From positions 1 to 37,771 of the forward strand of contig JAUMXI010000015.1 in assembly GCA_030529185.1 (NCBI GenBank): 37,771 nt of DNA, written 5' to 3'. The notes beneath the pieces were generated by a model. The model was not told the origin of the DNA and ran no database searches. It worked only from the letters and a program-made list of their open reading frames with translations. The stretch is from Flavobacteriaceae bacterium. Its GTDB lineage: Bacteria; Bacteroidota; Bacteroidia; Flavobacteriales; Weeksellaceae. The position numbers were made by a program, and so were the translations under genes. Positions 3,957 to 16,741 of the stretch are shown one piece after another (positions within the stretch are counted from its first letter, which is position 1; every line of letters starts with the position of its first letter).

Positions 3957-4124
3957 TTTTCATTAAATCAGCTCAAAGATGGCATAATTTACCCCAAATT
4001 TTCTCTAACTTACCCCATTGATGGCATAAAATATGACAAATTTTCTCTAATTTACCCCAACGAAGCTCTAAATTAGCCCAACGATGGCATAATTTACCCC
4101 AAATTTTCTCTTCCGAAGAGCAAC
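3957..4124. repeat. Degenerate tandem array with 21-bp period
   Basis: The 349-bp gap between mnmA and coaX contains about eight head-to-tail 21-bp units starting at 3957, 3978, 3999, 4020, 4041, 4062, 4083 and 4104. Two unit types recur, one beginning GATGGCATAATTTACCCC and one beginning TTTTCTCTAATTTACCCC. The stretches 3978-4006 and 4083-4111 are identical over 29 bp. Because 21 is a multiple of three, the plus strand reads as heptapeptide-like repeats (phrases such as DGIIYPKFSL), but a stop interrupts it at unit six and no start or family match is seen, so it is not called a gene. GCCATCTTT at 3951-3959 is the inverted copy of AAAGATGGC at 3975-3983. The rest of the gap holds only the mnmA promoter and the coaX terminator. 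Confidence 0.85.
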
Positions 4125-10331: not shown

Positions 10332-10967
10332 ATGAGAGAAAATATCCTCAATAAATCCAAGGAATTATTCCTAAAACACGGCTTTAAGACCGTAGGAATG
10401 GACGATATTTCCAACGAATTAGGAATATCAAAAAAAACACTTTACCAATATTTTTCTTCCAAAGATGAATTGGTAGAAACCTCTCTCAACCATATGTATG
10501 ATATGGTAATGCAAAAGATAAAGGCAATTTCAGGGACTTGCGAAACGCCCATCCACGAGCATTACGAAATCAATCGGTCGGTTCGGGATTTGTTCGGTGG
10601 AAAAATTAGTTACATCGCTATGTTTCAACTTAAAAAATATTACCCCCAATTAGCCCAAGAATTTCAAGAAAAAAGATACAAAGACAATAAAGTTCTTATC
10701 CAAAGAAACCTTCAAGAAGGCATAGAAAAAGGATATTATAGAAAGGAAATCAATATTAATTTTATTATCACTCAATTTATTACGGGTTCGTTGGCATTTT
10801 TCTACGATGAGGAATTCCCAATTGAAAAAATAGCAGGAGAAAAAGGAACAATGTCTTGCGAGGAATTTAATTGGAACTTTTTAGAATATTATCTCCGTGC
10901 GATAGTGACGCCCAAAGGTTTAGAAATTTTAGAAAACATTTTAAATAGCAAAGAATATGAAATTTAA
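10332..10967 (+). CDS. TetR/AcrR-family transcriptional regulator of the efflux operon
   Basis: The 211-aa protein has the N-terminal TetR helix-turn-helix: ILNKSKELFLKHGF, then TVGMDDISNELGISKKTLYQ and YFSSKDELVE (residues about 5-50). The rest is the helical ligand-binding and dimer domain, which is not conserved enough to name the inducer. It is the first gene of the RND operon and overlaps the next gene by 11 nt, so it probably represses its own operon and is relieved by an efflux substrate. An inverted repeat over the -33 box is the likely operator. Confidence 0.9.
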   Translation: MRENILNKSKELFLKHGFKTVGMDDISNELGISKKTLYQYFSSKDELVETSLNHMYDMVMQKIKAISGTCETPIHEHYEINRSVRDLFGGKISYIAMFQLKKYYPQLAQEFQEKRYKDNKVLIQRNLQEGIEKGYYRKEININFIITQFITGSLAFFYDEEFPIEKIAGEKGTMSCEEFNWNFLEYYLRAIVTPKGLEILENILNSKEYEI

Positions 10968-12258
10968 TTTATCCATCGTTTTTCTTCTCTTGATGAACTT
11001 CATCAAAGCACAAGAAGAATTGAGTTTAGAGAAGGCTATCAACTACGCCTTAGAACATAAGGCAGAAGCCGTGAAAGCAAAACTCAACTACGAAAATAGC
11101 GAATACCAAATTGCACAAGTGCGTTCGGCGGCTCTTCCTCAAATCAATGCAAGTGGAAACCTTGCCTACAACCCTTTGCTTCAAGAAATTAGCATTTTGG
11201 GTAAAAATATCAAAATGGGTAAAAATTGGAGTACATCGGCAGGGATTTCTCTTCATCAGCAGATTTTTAATCAAGGAGTTTTCATTGGTTTAAAAGCAGC
11301 GAGAACGACGAGAGAATTTTACGCTCTAAACCAACAAATGACCAAAGAAAACCTTATTGAAAGAGTGGCAACGGCTTATTATCAAGTCTATCAAACCAAA
11401 CAAAAATTGCTGACCATAGAGAATAACCTCAACAGCACTACAAAAACCCGAAATGTGCTTGATGGCTTATTCAAAAGTGGATTGGCAAAGAAGATTGATT
11501 TAGACCGAATGAATGTGGCTATCAATAATTTACAAGCGACTAAACAACAAATCATCAATGCTTTACAATTGCAGGAACATGGTTTGAAATTCATCATCGG
11601 AATGGATATTGACACGCCCATCACGATGCCGAAGGATACTTTTGAACCCAAACATCTATTGAGTGATGAGAATGAAAACATAGAAAACAGAACGGAGATG
11701 AAACTCATTGCCAAACAAATAGATATGCTCAATTTAGATAAAAAAGCAAAACTGGCAGAATATTACCCAACCTTGGCACTTACAGCAAATTTGGCTTATT
11801 CTGGAATGGGAAACCAATTTCCTTGGTTTAGCAAACACCAAGACACCAACTTTTTCAGTGCTTCGTCTATTGGTTTAACCTTAAATATCCCTATTTTTAA
11901 TGGATTTGCTACACGAGCAAAAGTTCAACAAGCGGAAATTAGCATTAAAAAAGCGGAATTAGATCAAAAAGATACTGCCTTGGCAATTAATTTGGATATT
12001 CTCAATGCAAAAACTCAAATCAACAATAGTTTATTGACCATCAACACGCAGAAAGAAAATGTTGGTTTGGCAAAACAAGTTTTAGCGAATGTCCAAAACA
12101 ATTACCGAAACGGCTTGGCAAATCTTACGGATTTATTAGACGCAGAAAAAGCCTACACAGAGGCAGAAAACAACTACACGAATGCCCTTCTGGAATACAA
12201 ATTAGCCGAAATCAAATTATTAAAATCAAAAGGAAATCTTCATTTATTAACTCAATAA
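10957..12258 (+). CDS. TolC-family outer-membrane efflux protein
   Basis: This is the outer-membrane channel of the tripartite efflux system. The 433-aa product has a signal peptide (MKFNLSIVFLLLMNFIKAQ) and the two-fold repeated outer-membrane-efflux-protein layout of long alpha-helical coils: the first half has LSLEKAINYALEHK and ATAYYQVYQTKQ, the second has ISIKKAELDQKD and GLANLTDLLDAEKAYTEAE, typical of the family's C-terminal repeat. It overlaps tetR by 11 nt and lies 15 bp before the adaptor gene, so all are made from one transcript. Confidence 0.92.
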   Translation: MKFNLSIVFLLLMNFIKAQEELSLEKAINYALEHKAEAVKAKLNYENSEYQIAQVRSAALPQINASGNLAYNPLLQEISILGKNIKMGKNWSTSAGISLHQQIFNQGVFIGLKAARTTREFYALNQQMTKENLIERVATAYYQVYQTKQKLLTIENNLNSTTKTRNVLDGLFKSGLAKKIDLDRMNVAINNLQATKQQIINALQLQEHGLKFIIGMDIDTPITMPKDTFEPKHLLSDENENIENRTEMKLIAKQIDMLNLDKKAKLAEYYPTLALTANLAYSGMGNQFPWFSKHQDTNFFSASSIGLTLNIPIFNGFATRAKVQQAEISIKKAELDQKDTALAINLDILNAKTQINNSLLTINTQKENVGLAKQVLANVQNNYRNGLANLTDLLDAEKAYTEAENNYTNALLEYKLAEIKLLKSKGNLHLLTQ

Positions 12259-12273
12259 TTAAATTTTACTACA

Positions 12274-13329
12274 ATGAAAAAAATCATTATATCTGTTTTA
12301 ACGATTGCTACCATTGGAGGCACAATTTACACCCTTAACAAAAACAAAAAAGACCGCGAGGAGCAAACCGCTATCGTGGCTCAAAAAAATTCTCATATCT
12401 CTGTAAGAGCCGAGCAAGTGGCTTTTAGAGAAATGAATACTCAATATGTAGCGAACGGGACTTTTCAACCGAAACAAGAGGTCTTGCTTTCTGCTGAAAC
12501 CCAAGGCAGAGTGCTTCGCGTGTTGGTAGATGAAGGGAGCTATGTGAGAGCAGGGCAAACTTTGGCTATCATTAAAGGAGATAAACTCAATGTGAATGTA
12601 AATAACGCACAAGCCGTTTATCAAAACGCATTGGCAGAAGTGAAAAGATTTGAAAGTGCGTATTCCACTGGTGGAGTCACCAAGCAACAACTCGACCAAA
12701 TCAAACTACAAGCCGAAACTGCCAAAAACAACCTCCAAAGTGCTAAATTAATGGCATCTGATGTGAATGTGACGGCTTCTTTCCCAGGGATTATCAACAA
12801 GAGAAATGTAGAACCTGGGGCTTTCGTGGCACCTGGACACGGCTTATTCCACATTGTGAATGTCAGCACGCTAAAACTTAATGTTTCCGTAGATGAGAAA
12901 AATATCGGAAGCCTTAGGCAAGGGCAAAGCGTGGAAATCACTTCTTCGGTTTATCCAGAGGCAAAATTCACGGGGACAATTACTTTCATCGCTCCAAAGG
13001 CTGATGCAGGGCTAAATTTCCCAGTAGAGATTGAGATTAAAAATAATGCCAATAATGATTTAAAAGCAGGAATGTATGGAACGGCTCATTTCGGTAGCCG
13101 TGCGACCAGTCAGGTTTTAACCATACCAAGAGCCGCTTTCGTGGGAAGTGTAAGCTCTAACCAAGTCTATGTAGTGAAAGACGGAAAAGCAGTATTGAAA
13201 ACCATAGTTTCAGGGAGAAATTTTGGAGATTATATAGAGGTCATTTCTGGACTGGCAAACGGAGAGCAAGTCATTACCTCAGGGCAAATCAACCTATCTG
13301 ACCAAGCTCCTGTGGAAATTATTAAATAA
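12274..13329 (+). CDS. RND efflux periplasmic adaptor (membrane fusion protein)
   Basis: The adaptor links pump and outer-membrane channel in the periplasm. The 351-aa protein starts with an N-terminal membrane anchor or signal (KKIIISVLTIATIGGTIYTL). It has a split lipoyl domain (GRVLRVLVDEGSYVRAGQTL before the hairpin; ASFPGIINKRNVEPGAFV after it), a short alpha-hairpin between (about 105-150), a beta-barrel domain (LNVSVDEKNIGSLRQGQ) and a C-terminal membrane-proximal domain. No lipobox cysteine is seen. The pump gene follows only after 280 bp of repeat DNA, an unusual gap for this operon type. Confidence 0.92.
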   Translation: MKKIIISVLTIATIGGTIYTLNKNKKDREEQTAIVAQKNSHISVRAEQVAFREMNTQYVANGTFQPKQEVLLSAETQGRVLRVLVDEGSYVRAGQTLAIIKGDKLNVNVNNAQAVYQNALAEVKRFESAYSTGGVTKQQLDQIKLQAETAKNNLQSAKLMASDVNVTASFPGIINKRNVEPGAFVAPGHGLFHIVNVSTLKLNVSVDEKNIGSLRQGQSVEITSSVYPEAKFTGTITFIAPKADAGLNFPVEIEIKNNANNDLKAGMYGTAHFGSRATSQVLTIPRAAFVGSVSSNQVYVVKDGKAVLKTIVSGRNFGDYIEVISGLANGEQVITSGQINLSDQAPVEIIK

Positions 13330-13354
13330 AAAAGCATTAATACTATTCAATTGA

Positions 13355-13576
13355 TATTAAATAAGGTTTTAGAACTCACAAAAACCACTTCGGAGGGAGT
13401 AAAAACTATCTTTTAAGAGATAAAAACTATTTCGGAACAGGTTTTTACCATTTCTAAACAAGTAAAAACTATCTTTTAGGAGATAAAAACTATTTTGGAA
13501 CGGGTTTTTGCCACTTCTGAACGAGTAAAAACTATCTTTTAAGGGGTAAAAACTATTTCGGAACGGGTTTTTTGAG
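13355..13576. repeat. Tandem array with 21-bp period and 63-bp higher-order period
   Basis: Three 21-bp unit types, A, B and C, alternate. A units (GAGTAAAAACTATCTTTTAAG-like, first 20 bases GAGTAAAAACTATCTTTTAA) start at 13397, 13460 and 13523. B units (AGATAAAAACTATTTCGGAA plus C) start at 13418, 13481 and 13544. C units (GGTTTTTGCCACTTCTGAAC) start at 13439 and 13502, with a cut-off third at 13565. Weaker units precede from about 13355. A and B contain GTAAAAAC or ATAAAAAC while C carries the inverted GTTTTTAC or GTTTTTGC. The minus strand is open across the array (70 codons, 13369-13581), reading as heptads such as KDSFYLL. It fills almost all of the 280-bp gap between adaptor and pump genes; no promoter box or terminator is visible there. 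Confidence 0.9.
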
Positions 13577-13609
13577 TTCATTTATTATCATCAACATTAA
13601 ATTTATTTT

Positions 13610-16600
13610 ATGAAATTAGCAGAAATATCCATAAAACGCCCCAGTATTATCATCGTGCTATTTAGCATTCTCACTTTGGGGGGAATACTCGCTTACAAAC
13701 AATTAAGCTACGAGCTTATCCCTAAAATGGAGACCAATACCATCTCCATACAGACCATTTACCCTGGGGCTTCACCTGCGGAGGTGGAAAATACCATCAC
13801 GAAGAAAATAGAAGATGCCGTTTCTACATTAGAAAATGTAAAAAAGATAGAATCTAAATCCTTAGAAAGTGTTTCTGTCGTGATTATTAACCTTAATACA
13901 GGGGCTGATGTGAATTTCCTCTTGACTGATGCTCAAAGGAAAATCAATGCCATTGCAGGGGAACTGCCCGACGGAGCTAAAACGCCTTCTTTGAGTAAGT
14001 TTTCGTTAGATGATTTACCGATTATGAACCTATCGATAACTTCCAAACTCTCCGAAAAAGAGTTGTATGAACTTCTGGATAAGAAAATTCAACCGATTTT
14101 TTCTCGTATCAATGGAGTCGCAAAAGTAGATATGCTTGGAGGGCAAAAACGAGAAATTAAAATCAGTATAGACCCTAAAAAATTGGAAGGTTATGGGCTA
14201 AATATCGCTCAGGTAAAGCAACTTATCGCCGCTTCCAATTTAGATTTTCCTACAGGAAATACTAAAACCAATGAAAGACAAACCATTATTCGTCTAATGG
14301 GGAAAATTTCTTCCTTGGAGGAAATGAGAAGTCTTCCGCTAATGACACCTACGGGGCAAACCATTCGTTTGGGAGATGTTGCAGATATTCAGGATTCGGA
14401 AAAAGAAGTTGAAAAAATCGCAAGGATTAACCAGCAGAATACCATTTTATTACAAATCGTGAAACAATCCGATGCCAATGCCGTTCAGGTAAGCCGATTG
14501 GTAAAACAAACGATTGAAAATGTAGAAAAAGACTACCAAAAAGAAGGCATCAAAGTATCTATTGCTAATGATACTTCGGATTATACCCTCAACGCTGCAA
14601 ATAATGTGATTTTTGACTTGTTTTTGGCGATTGTTTTGGTAGGATTTATCATGCTTTTCTTCCTTCATAGTTTGAGAAATGCCCTTATTACAATGGTGGC
14701 AATTCCCCTTTCTTTGATTGCAACTTTCATCGGATTGCATTTTATGGGCTATACCCTCAACCTGATGTCTTTATTAGGACTTTCCCTTGTGGTGGGGATT
14801 TTGGTAGATGACGCCATTGTGGTAATTGAGAACATTCACCGCCATATGGAAATGGGTAAAAGTAAAATCCGTGCCGCTTATGATGGTGCTTCGGAGATTG
14901 GCTTTACGGTAATGGCAATTACTTTGGTTATAGTAGTGGTATTCTTGCCTATTGCAATGGCAACGGGTTTGGTTGCCAATATTTTGGTGCAATTCTGCGT
15001 TACGGTAATGATTTCCACGATGCTTTCACTTTTGGTTTCCTTTACCATTGTGCCTTGGCTGTTTTCAAGATTTGGGAAATTGGAACATCTCAGCGAAGAA
15101 TCTTTCTTTGGTAAAATAATTTTAGACTTTGAAAGAATTTTAACCAATTTCACGGAAAGCGTTGGAAATCTTTTAAAATGGGCTTTGAGTTCCATCACCA
15201 CGAAATTAATTACCCTCGGAGCAACAGTAGCATTATTATTCGCCACAGTGGGATTACTTCGCTTTGGATATATCGGAGCTGATTTCTTCCCAAGTGCTGA
15301 TAAGGGTGAATTTATGGTTCAATTGGAATTAGAAAAAGATACTTCCATTGAAGTCACCAATAAAATGACTCAAAAAGCCGAACAATACCTCAGCTCTATT
15401 CCTCAAATTGATAAAATATTAACCACCGTGGGTCAATCCTCTGATGGAATGGCTTCCACTTCTGGAACGAAATACAAATCTGAAATTCAGGTTTTCCTTA
15501 AAAAAGATGGAAGCATTACAGAAGGAACCAATATTTATGCCTCTAAACTGAAAAGAGAACTGGAAAAACAATTGGTAGGAGCGAAAGTAAAAATCGTTTC
15601 CGTCGGACTAATGGGAGCAGAAAGAGCACCTATTACCCTCACTGTCATCGGTTCAGAAATGAAAGATGCAATGGAATTCGCCCAAAAAGCCGCCGAAGAA
15701 TTGAAGAAAATCCCAGGGGCGACCGAAGTGCGATTGACCTCCGAAGATGGGAACCCAGAAATCAATGTAAAAGTTAATAGAGATAAAATGACCCAATTAG
15801 GGCTAAATGTAGCCACTGTGGGAACGATTATGCAAACGGCTTTCTCTGGAAACACAGACTCTAAATACCGAGCAGGAGAATACGAATACGATATGAACAT
15901 CCGTTTTGATGAGCACGGAAGAATGGGCATTGATGATGTGAAGAACCTAAAATTCCTCAACAATATGGGACAAACTATCCGTTTAGAGCAATTTGCCTCT
16001 GTGGAATACGGCTCTGGACCAACATTGTTGGAGAGAAGAGATAAATCTCCTTCCGTGTCTATTCAGGCGAAAGCCATTGGTGTTCCCGCGGGTACTATCT
16101 CTGCCGAATGGGAAAAGCAACTCTCTCAAATGGAGAAAAAAGCAGGAGTAAGCTATATGTGGGGCGGAAATACAGAAAACCAAAAAGAAGGTTTCGGAAC
16201 TTTGGGGGTTACCCTTATCGCTGCTATCGTGCTGATGTATTTAGTAATGGTGGCTTTGTATGATAGTTTCGTGACGCCATTCATCGTGATTTTCTCCATT
16301 CCATTGTCATTTATCGGAGCATTATTGCTAATGGCACTTACCAACCAAACGCTCAATGTATTCACTATTTTGGGAATTATTATGCTCATTGGTCTTGTTG
16401 CGAAAAACGCCATTATGTTGGTAGATTTTGCCAACCATAGAAAAGAAGAAGGCGATAGCACTTTTGATGCTCTTGTAGCGGCTAATCAGGCTCGTCTTCG
16501 TCCAATTTTGATGACCACTATTGCAATGGTGGCAGGTATGATTCCCATTGCTACGGCAACAGGAGACGGTGCCGACATCAACCGAGGAGTAGCCATCGTA

Positions 16601-16741
16601 ATTATTGGAGGGCTTTTATCTTCGCTATTCCTTACCTTGGTGGTTATCCCAGTGGTGTATTCTATCTTTGACAGCATCCAAAACCGATTGGGCAAAAGCG
16701 AAAAAATAGACTACCACAAAGAAATATTTTCTGATAAATAA
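13610..16741 (+). CDS. RND-family (AcrB/HAE1-like) efflux pump
   Basis: This is the inner-membrane proton-driven pump that exports drugs or other compounds through the adaptor and TolC-like channel. The 1043-aa protein has the full RND layout: N-terminal helix (PSIIIVLFSILTLGGI), two periplasmic loops (about 35-330 and 555-860) and two bundles of transmembrane helices. The proton-relay aspartates are present in TM4 (GILVDDAIVVIEN, D400 and D401), and the TM10 lysine lies in VAKNAIMLVDFANH. The HAE1 type is favoured over the CzcA metal type by the DD pair and by the drug-type context with TetR. Substrate is unknown. A terminator follows at 16745. Confidence 0.94.
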   Translation: MKLAEISIKRPSIIIVLFSILTLGGILAYKQLSYELIPKMETNTISIQTIYPGASPAEVENTITKKIEDAVSTLENVKKIESKSLESVSVVIINLNTGADVNFLLTDAQRKINAIAGELPDGAKTPSLSKFSLDDLPIMNLSITSKLSEKELYELLDKKIQPIFSRINGVAKVDMLGGQKREIKISIDPKKLEGYGLNIAQVKQLIAASNLDFPTGNTKTNERQTIIRLMGKISSLEEMRSLPLMTPTGQTIRLGDVADIQDSEKEVEKIARINQQNTILLQIVKQSDANAVQVSRLVKQTIENVEKDYQKEGIKVSIANDTSDYTLNAANNVIFDLFLAIVLVGFIMLFFLHSLRNALITMVAIPLSLIATFIGLHFMGYTLNLMSLLGLSLVVGILVDDAIVVIENIHRHMEMGKSKIRAAYDGASEIGFTVMAITLVIVVVFLPIAMATGLVANILVQFCVTVMISTMLSLLVSFTIVPWLFSRFGKLEHLSEESFFGKIILDFERILTNFTESVGNLLKWALSSITTKLITLGATVALLFATVGLLRFGYIGADFFPSADKGEFMVQLELEKDTSIEVTNKMTQKAEQYLSSIPQIDKILTTVGQSSDGMASTSGTKYKSEIQVFLKKDGSITEGTNIYASKLKRELEKQLVGAKVKIVSVGLMGAERAPITLTVIGSEMKDAMEFAQKAAEELKKIPGATEVRLTSEDGNPEINVKVNRDKMTQLGLNVATVGTIMQTAFSGNTDSKYRAGEYEYDMNIRFDEHGRMGIDDVKNLKFLNNMGQTIRLEQFASVEYGSGPTLLERRDKSPSVSIQAKAIGVPAGTISAEWEKQLSQMEKKAGVSYMWGGNTENQKEGFGTLGVTLIAAIVLMYLVMVALYDSFVTPFIVIFSIPLSFIGALLLMALTNQTLNVFTILGIIMLIGLVAKNAIMLVDFANHRKEEGDSTFDALVAANQARLRPILMTTIAMVAGMIPIATATGDGADINRGVAIVIIGGLLSSLFLTLVVIPVVYSIFDSIQNRLGKSEKIDYHKEIFSDK

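Follow-up and report, generated by a model that had tools for sequence, protein, structure and literature searches.

Why does an RND efflux operon carry a block of tandem repeats between its adaptor and pump genes? A first-pass annotation of the DNA analyzed here, a 37,771-nucleotide stretch from a Flavobacteriaceae bacterium (the window; assembly GCA_030529185.1), placed an array of 21-bp units at 13355-13576, described an A-B-C order with a 63-bp superstructure, and treated the array as a feature of the pump operon (Table 1).

Table 1. Coordinates of the repeat arrays, operon genes and predicted transcript structure in the window.
Feature	Coordinates	Strand	Basis
Second array, TTTACCCCAAnnATGGCATAA theme, unit unrelated to focal array, between mnmA and coaX	3959..4110		TRF, period scan
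TetR-family regulator gene, operon head	10332..10967	+	Pfam
Outer-membrane efflux protein gene (OEP), same operon	10957..12258	+	Pfam
Periplasmic adaptor gene (HlyD_D23/HlyD_3), upstream of array	12274..13329	+	Pfam
Predicted single long hairpin of operon transcript	13352..13592	+	Fold, z = -5.9 vs dinucleotide shuffles
Focal array, ten 21-bp units, 63-bp A-B-C higher-order repeats	13371..13580		TRF, in-register alignment
Pump leader, outside hairpin pairing	13593..13609	+	Fold prediction, homologue comparison
RND pump gene (ACR_tran), downstream of array	13610..16741	+	Pfam

The array and its organization were confirmed. TRF reported a period of 63 at 13398-13572 (2.8 copies, 90% matches, 0% indels); read as a 21-bp unit, this segment gave 8.1 copies, also with 0% indels. 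Mean pairwise identity was 0.65 among six consecutive 21-mers and 0.87 among the three 63-mers, while the maxima reached in 1000 dinucleotide shuffles were 0.44 and 0.43, respectively. The focal array is thus a genuine repeat, far outside the shuffle range. Both the A-B-C units and the 63-bp superstructure stand as first described, although the in-register limits are slightly shifted.

As claimed, A and B units contain AAAAA and C units TTTTT. The phasing of the 14 A/T tracts of at least 4 bp at 10.5 bp (R = 0.90) agrees with the in-phase A-tracts proposed earlier, and the vector sum of these tracts, 12.5, is the largest in the window (background 95th percentile, 4.5). A test of the 63-bp repeat for dyad symmetry gave p = 0.02-0.04. 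The units abut one another, so the array lacks the unique, constant-length spacers between near-identical repeats that define a CRISPR. No codon-phase bias was seen among the 63-bp copies, whose 12 variable columns fall 4/5/3 by phase; coding heptad repeats were rejected on this lack of bias and the few open frames.

The adaptor and pump of the operon are 66% and 74% identical to Sphingobacterium proteins and only ~50% and ~61% identical to those of its own family. Because the adaptor is ~50% identical within the family while aspS of the window is 90% identical to that of the closest genome, G005, the operon (10332-16741) was probably acquired horizontally. In the closest homologous operons, those of Sphingobacterium, the adaptor-pump gap is 12-26 bp as compared to 280 bp in the window, and AAATTTATTT, which precedes the pump start codon, recurs in several of these homologues. 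The array would then have arisen in the operon, or reached it, after the acquisition.

The expectation that adaptor and pump genes lie only a few bases apart is only partly borne out in the family of the window: its gaps span 1 bp to ~1970 bp and contain simple repeats, a period-22 array (G025) or three genes (G002). The gap is a site that tolerates insertions. The three ORFs in the gap of G002 (L160 9397-11367, complement) resemble, by eye, a phospholipase A, a SemiSWEET transporter and a nitroreductase. In G005, the closest relative, a gap of almost equal length (285 bp) holds a period-21 array (L184 3391-3675) whose units are unrelated to those of the window and find no match in the source genome, G000. 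The G005 pump operon is not orthologous to that of the window, its adaptor being 72% identical to the G002 adaptor and ~50% identical to the window's. An array is absent from this gap in most related operons.

To place the array in its genome, we masked genes by a simple ORF rule and compared periods of 13-39 bp in the intergenic DNA of 784 kb (46%) of G000. Genomes were sampled rather than covered whole; G000 is a fragmented draft of 118 contigs (93% complete), and the G005 assembly is 79% complete. In the G000 draft, the short contig L101 (G000:C98), and possibly L102 and L105, have frames seemingly broken by TGA, unlike the remaining genome, and may be mollicute contamination. Contig L096 (G000:C94) carries two similar coding regions, at 1-300 and 2060-2360, with proline/glycine-rich 15-bp repeats.

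The first-pass annotation had proposed looking for similar arrays elsewhere in the genome, and they do exist. Nine period-21 arrays, the second array of the window among them, were found in the 784 kb at a score of at least 0.47, and all four arrays scoring at least 0.55 had a period of 21. Extrapolation from the sampled 46% suggests ~20 arrays genome-wide. Arrays related to the second array of the window lie on contigs C55 and C8. The theme GTAAAAAC occurs in arrays on C91 and C70, the theme ACCCCAA/ATGGCATAA in arrays on C91, C55 and C8, and a third recurring theme on C55 and C92. Each of these three themes is present at two or three loci; the remaining themes are single. At three loci (window 3959-4110, L112 9558-9784 and L168 15314-15500) about five interchangeable types of 21-bp unit recur, their order differing by locus, and two copies of this three-locus family also contain a 42-bp imperfect hairpin (GGGCTTCC...GGAAGCCC).

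Within the arrays, higher-order blocks of 42, 63 and 84 bp (2, 3 or 4 units) have been duplicated. In aggregate the units show dyad symmetry, with a Fisher p of about 1e-6 over 20 arrays that overstates the evidence because some arrays share themes and were treated as independent; this symmetry is a tendency, and several individual arrays show none. The helical phasing of A/T tracts exceeds that of the surrounding DNA, but no more than a 21-bp period alone imposes, so that A-tract curvature was rejected as a trait defining the class. Little or no clear bias was seen in the siting of arrays relative to promoters or terminators.

Similar arrays were found in other genera. In 520 kb of G002, a member of a different genus, eight of the 12 best arrays have a period of 21 and the others 22 or 23, while 43 kb of G005, from another genus of the family, contain two period-21 arrays. 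The period is kept in both genomes and the sequences differ from those of G000. A Bacteroidales metagenome contig (L035) contributed one candidate array, and no period-21 arrays were seen in eight further relatives (40-80 kb sampled from each). Since G002 and G025 also hold 22- or 23-bp arrays, 21 is a strong preference and not a law. Two near-perfect 23-bp tandem arrays of G002 (L147 14282-14412 and L160 5816-5930) look younger than the 21-bp arrays. Except for the pump slot, no gene pair flanking an array turned up intact in what was sampled of the other genomes, which says nothing against a conserved position.

Taken together, we favor the interpretation, at a probability of about one half, that the focal array is a copy of a lineage-restricted, satellite-like intergenic class in which the 21-bp period is fixed. 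Because the ~20 arrays of the genome share a period but often not a sequence, a satellite-like element probably landed in the operon, and the array is probably not a pump switch. The view of the array as a feature of the pump operon was not supported, as it belongs to a dispersed class found between unrelated genes. The class is dispersed, holds its period while its sequence varies, has undergone duplication of two-, three- and four-unit blocks, and tends to dyad symmetry. We infer that arrays could expand, and swap units, through recombination or slippage between units, every change being a step of 21 bp, the lowest integer length in bases that completes whole helical turns (2 x 10.5), and that arrays may persist where insertion is tolerated. 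The focal array would have come into a gap that tolerates insertions, in a pump operon that itself appears to have been acquired horizontally. Any effect on the pump would probably be passive, through a long, REP-like intercistronic mRNA hairpin and local DNA curvature, with no dedicated regulatory site.

Eukaryotic satellite DNA offers a parallel, as it consists of diverged monomers in higher-order repeats, with blocks of several monomers amplified together. The present arrays share the diverged monomers and block amplification but are bacterial, ~100-300 bp long and spread over many short loci.

Several points count against the satellite-like reading, among them the 22- and 23-bp arrays noted above and the shared themes behind the dyad p-value. 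We know of no mutational route that favors exactly 21 bp; the absence of indels from a diverged array could mean that spacing is under selection; and the folding advantage predicted for the focal sense strand would be in keeping with selection on the RNA at this locus. As to why the period should be 21, two helical turns are the natural guess, whether spacing is selected or the mutational process senses helical phase.

Another possibility, less likely than not, is that these arrays form an undescribed intergenic class of Bacteroidota, confined to one family, in which spacing of exactly two helical turns is conserved and sequence is not. Such a class would imply either that a generating enzyme works in steps of 21 bp or that a DNA-binding lattice exerts selection for spacing alone. 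A literature search, from which subscription journals were largely absent, returned no account of intergenic 21-bp arrays in this group. Among published intergenic arrays in Bacteroidetes, the nearest are the direct repeats of the TAACTGA heptamer, known from Beggiatoaceae, cyanobacteria and some Bacteroidetes including Elizabethkingia (PMC4679880). Both kinds are intergenic, tandem and patchy in distribution; however, the heptamer arrays have a 7-bp unit and one sequence (PMC4679880), whereas no 7-bp sub-period was detected here. Lag-7 identity was 0.24, lag-7 and lag-14 identity were both at baseline, and an origin from heptamer repeats was rejected on this ground.

A third explanation, which we consider improbable, is that the array is an intercistronic mRNA element selected in this operon, with a hairpin that would protect or isolate the adaptor message and set the adaptor-to-pump ratio, in the manner of the REP hairpins of enteric bacteria. 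The pairing of the inverted C unit with A or B units in RNA, suggested earlier, agrees with the predicted fold, and folding of the transcript, also proposed at that stage, gave a single hairpin of 241 nt and 82 pairs with its axis at about 13476, in which the MFE and centroid structures are the same. Its outer pairs (TGATA..., GAACTCA/TGAGTTC) lie partly beyond the repeat consensus, and 22 nt past the adaptor stop codon and 17 nt ahead of the pump start are left unpaired. The sense strand is predicted to fold far better than the antisense strand (-65 vs -48 kcal/mol), and most column-shuffled arrays fold worse, 9 of 300 reaching the focal value. Consistent with a role in the transcript, there was no intrinsic terminator (a G+C-rich stem followed by a T run) at 13250-13700 and no obvious promoter in the gap. 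Searches of Rfam gave weak chance matches only, far below gathering scores.

On the other hand, no single hairpin is predicted for the array that fills this slot in G005 (z = -2.5), and most related operons have no array, the gap being 12-26 bp in the horizontally related ones. Among the other arrays good folds occur on either strand, with the sense strand not consistently favored, and for this reason RNA-level selection was rejected as a trait of the class. Neither the one-hairpin fold nor such well-phased A/T tracts are universal among the arrays.

We give the same low weight to a DNA-level explanation, in which a dimeric or nucleoid-associated protein would sit on the dyad units along one face of the helix, once every two turns, so that spacing is selected while the bases drift. 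The two-turn spacing, the aggregate dyad symmetry, the absence of indels and the in-phase A/T tracts are all consistent with such a protein. However, no single sequence-specific protein can bind all of the themes because their sequences are unrelated, no candidate protein was identified, the arrangement of A-tracts within units is no better phased than that of rearranged units (p = 0.12), and arrays show little siting bias toward promoters. Plasmid iterons are direct repeats about two helical turns apart that lie next to a rep gene and are bound by the Rep protein. Their spacing is similar, but the arrays described here occupy many chromosomal loci with unrelated sequences, and the focal array is flanked by the adaptor and pump genes with no rep gene.

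A purely local, neutral duplication unconnected with the remaining genome, which the first-pass annotation had foreseen if no similar arrays were found elsewhere, is very unlikely: tandem duplication is common in bacteria and the adaptor-pump slot accepts insertions, but similar arrays do occur at other loci, with shared themes and a genome-wide excess of exactly 21 bp. A plasmid or phage origin was not supported by similarity; in exact pattern scans of viral contigs the GTAAAAAC theme had no match, and another theme had four single, unrelated matches without periodicity.

Least probable of all, and by our estimate nearly negligible, is that the arrays are REP/REPIN-type palindromes spread by a RAYT (Y1 transposase), since none of the four array-bearing genomes searched (G000, 93% complete; G005, 79%; G002; G025) yielded PF01797 (Y1_Tnp), which does occur in several relatives that showed no arrays. 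The idea draws on real likenesses. REP, BIME and REPIN elements of enteric bacteria and Pseudomonas are palindromic, intergenic, dispersed and often intercistronic, where they can form mRNA hairpins, and each genome carries one or a few conserved REP sequences associated with RAYT (PMC3116915, PMC12306157). In their operon context these are the closest of the known systems, as the present arrays are likewise intergenic, hairpin-capable and dispersed at many loci (nine in 784 kb, with three of the themes present at more than one locus). In contrast to REPs, at least five unrelated themes are present in G000 in place of a single conserved core, and they are united by the fixed 21-bp period.

The satellite-like reading carries a caution, namely that the presence of an array in an interesting operon is no ground for assigning it a regulatory role. 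Bacterial repeat families are mostly defined by sequence, while the present arrays, which come from several genera, are unrelated in sequence yet agree in one exact period. If this holds true on complete genomes, a mechanism that measures 21 bp would be needed, and the answer would cover arrays across the family.
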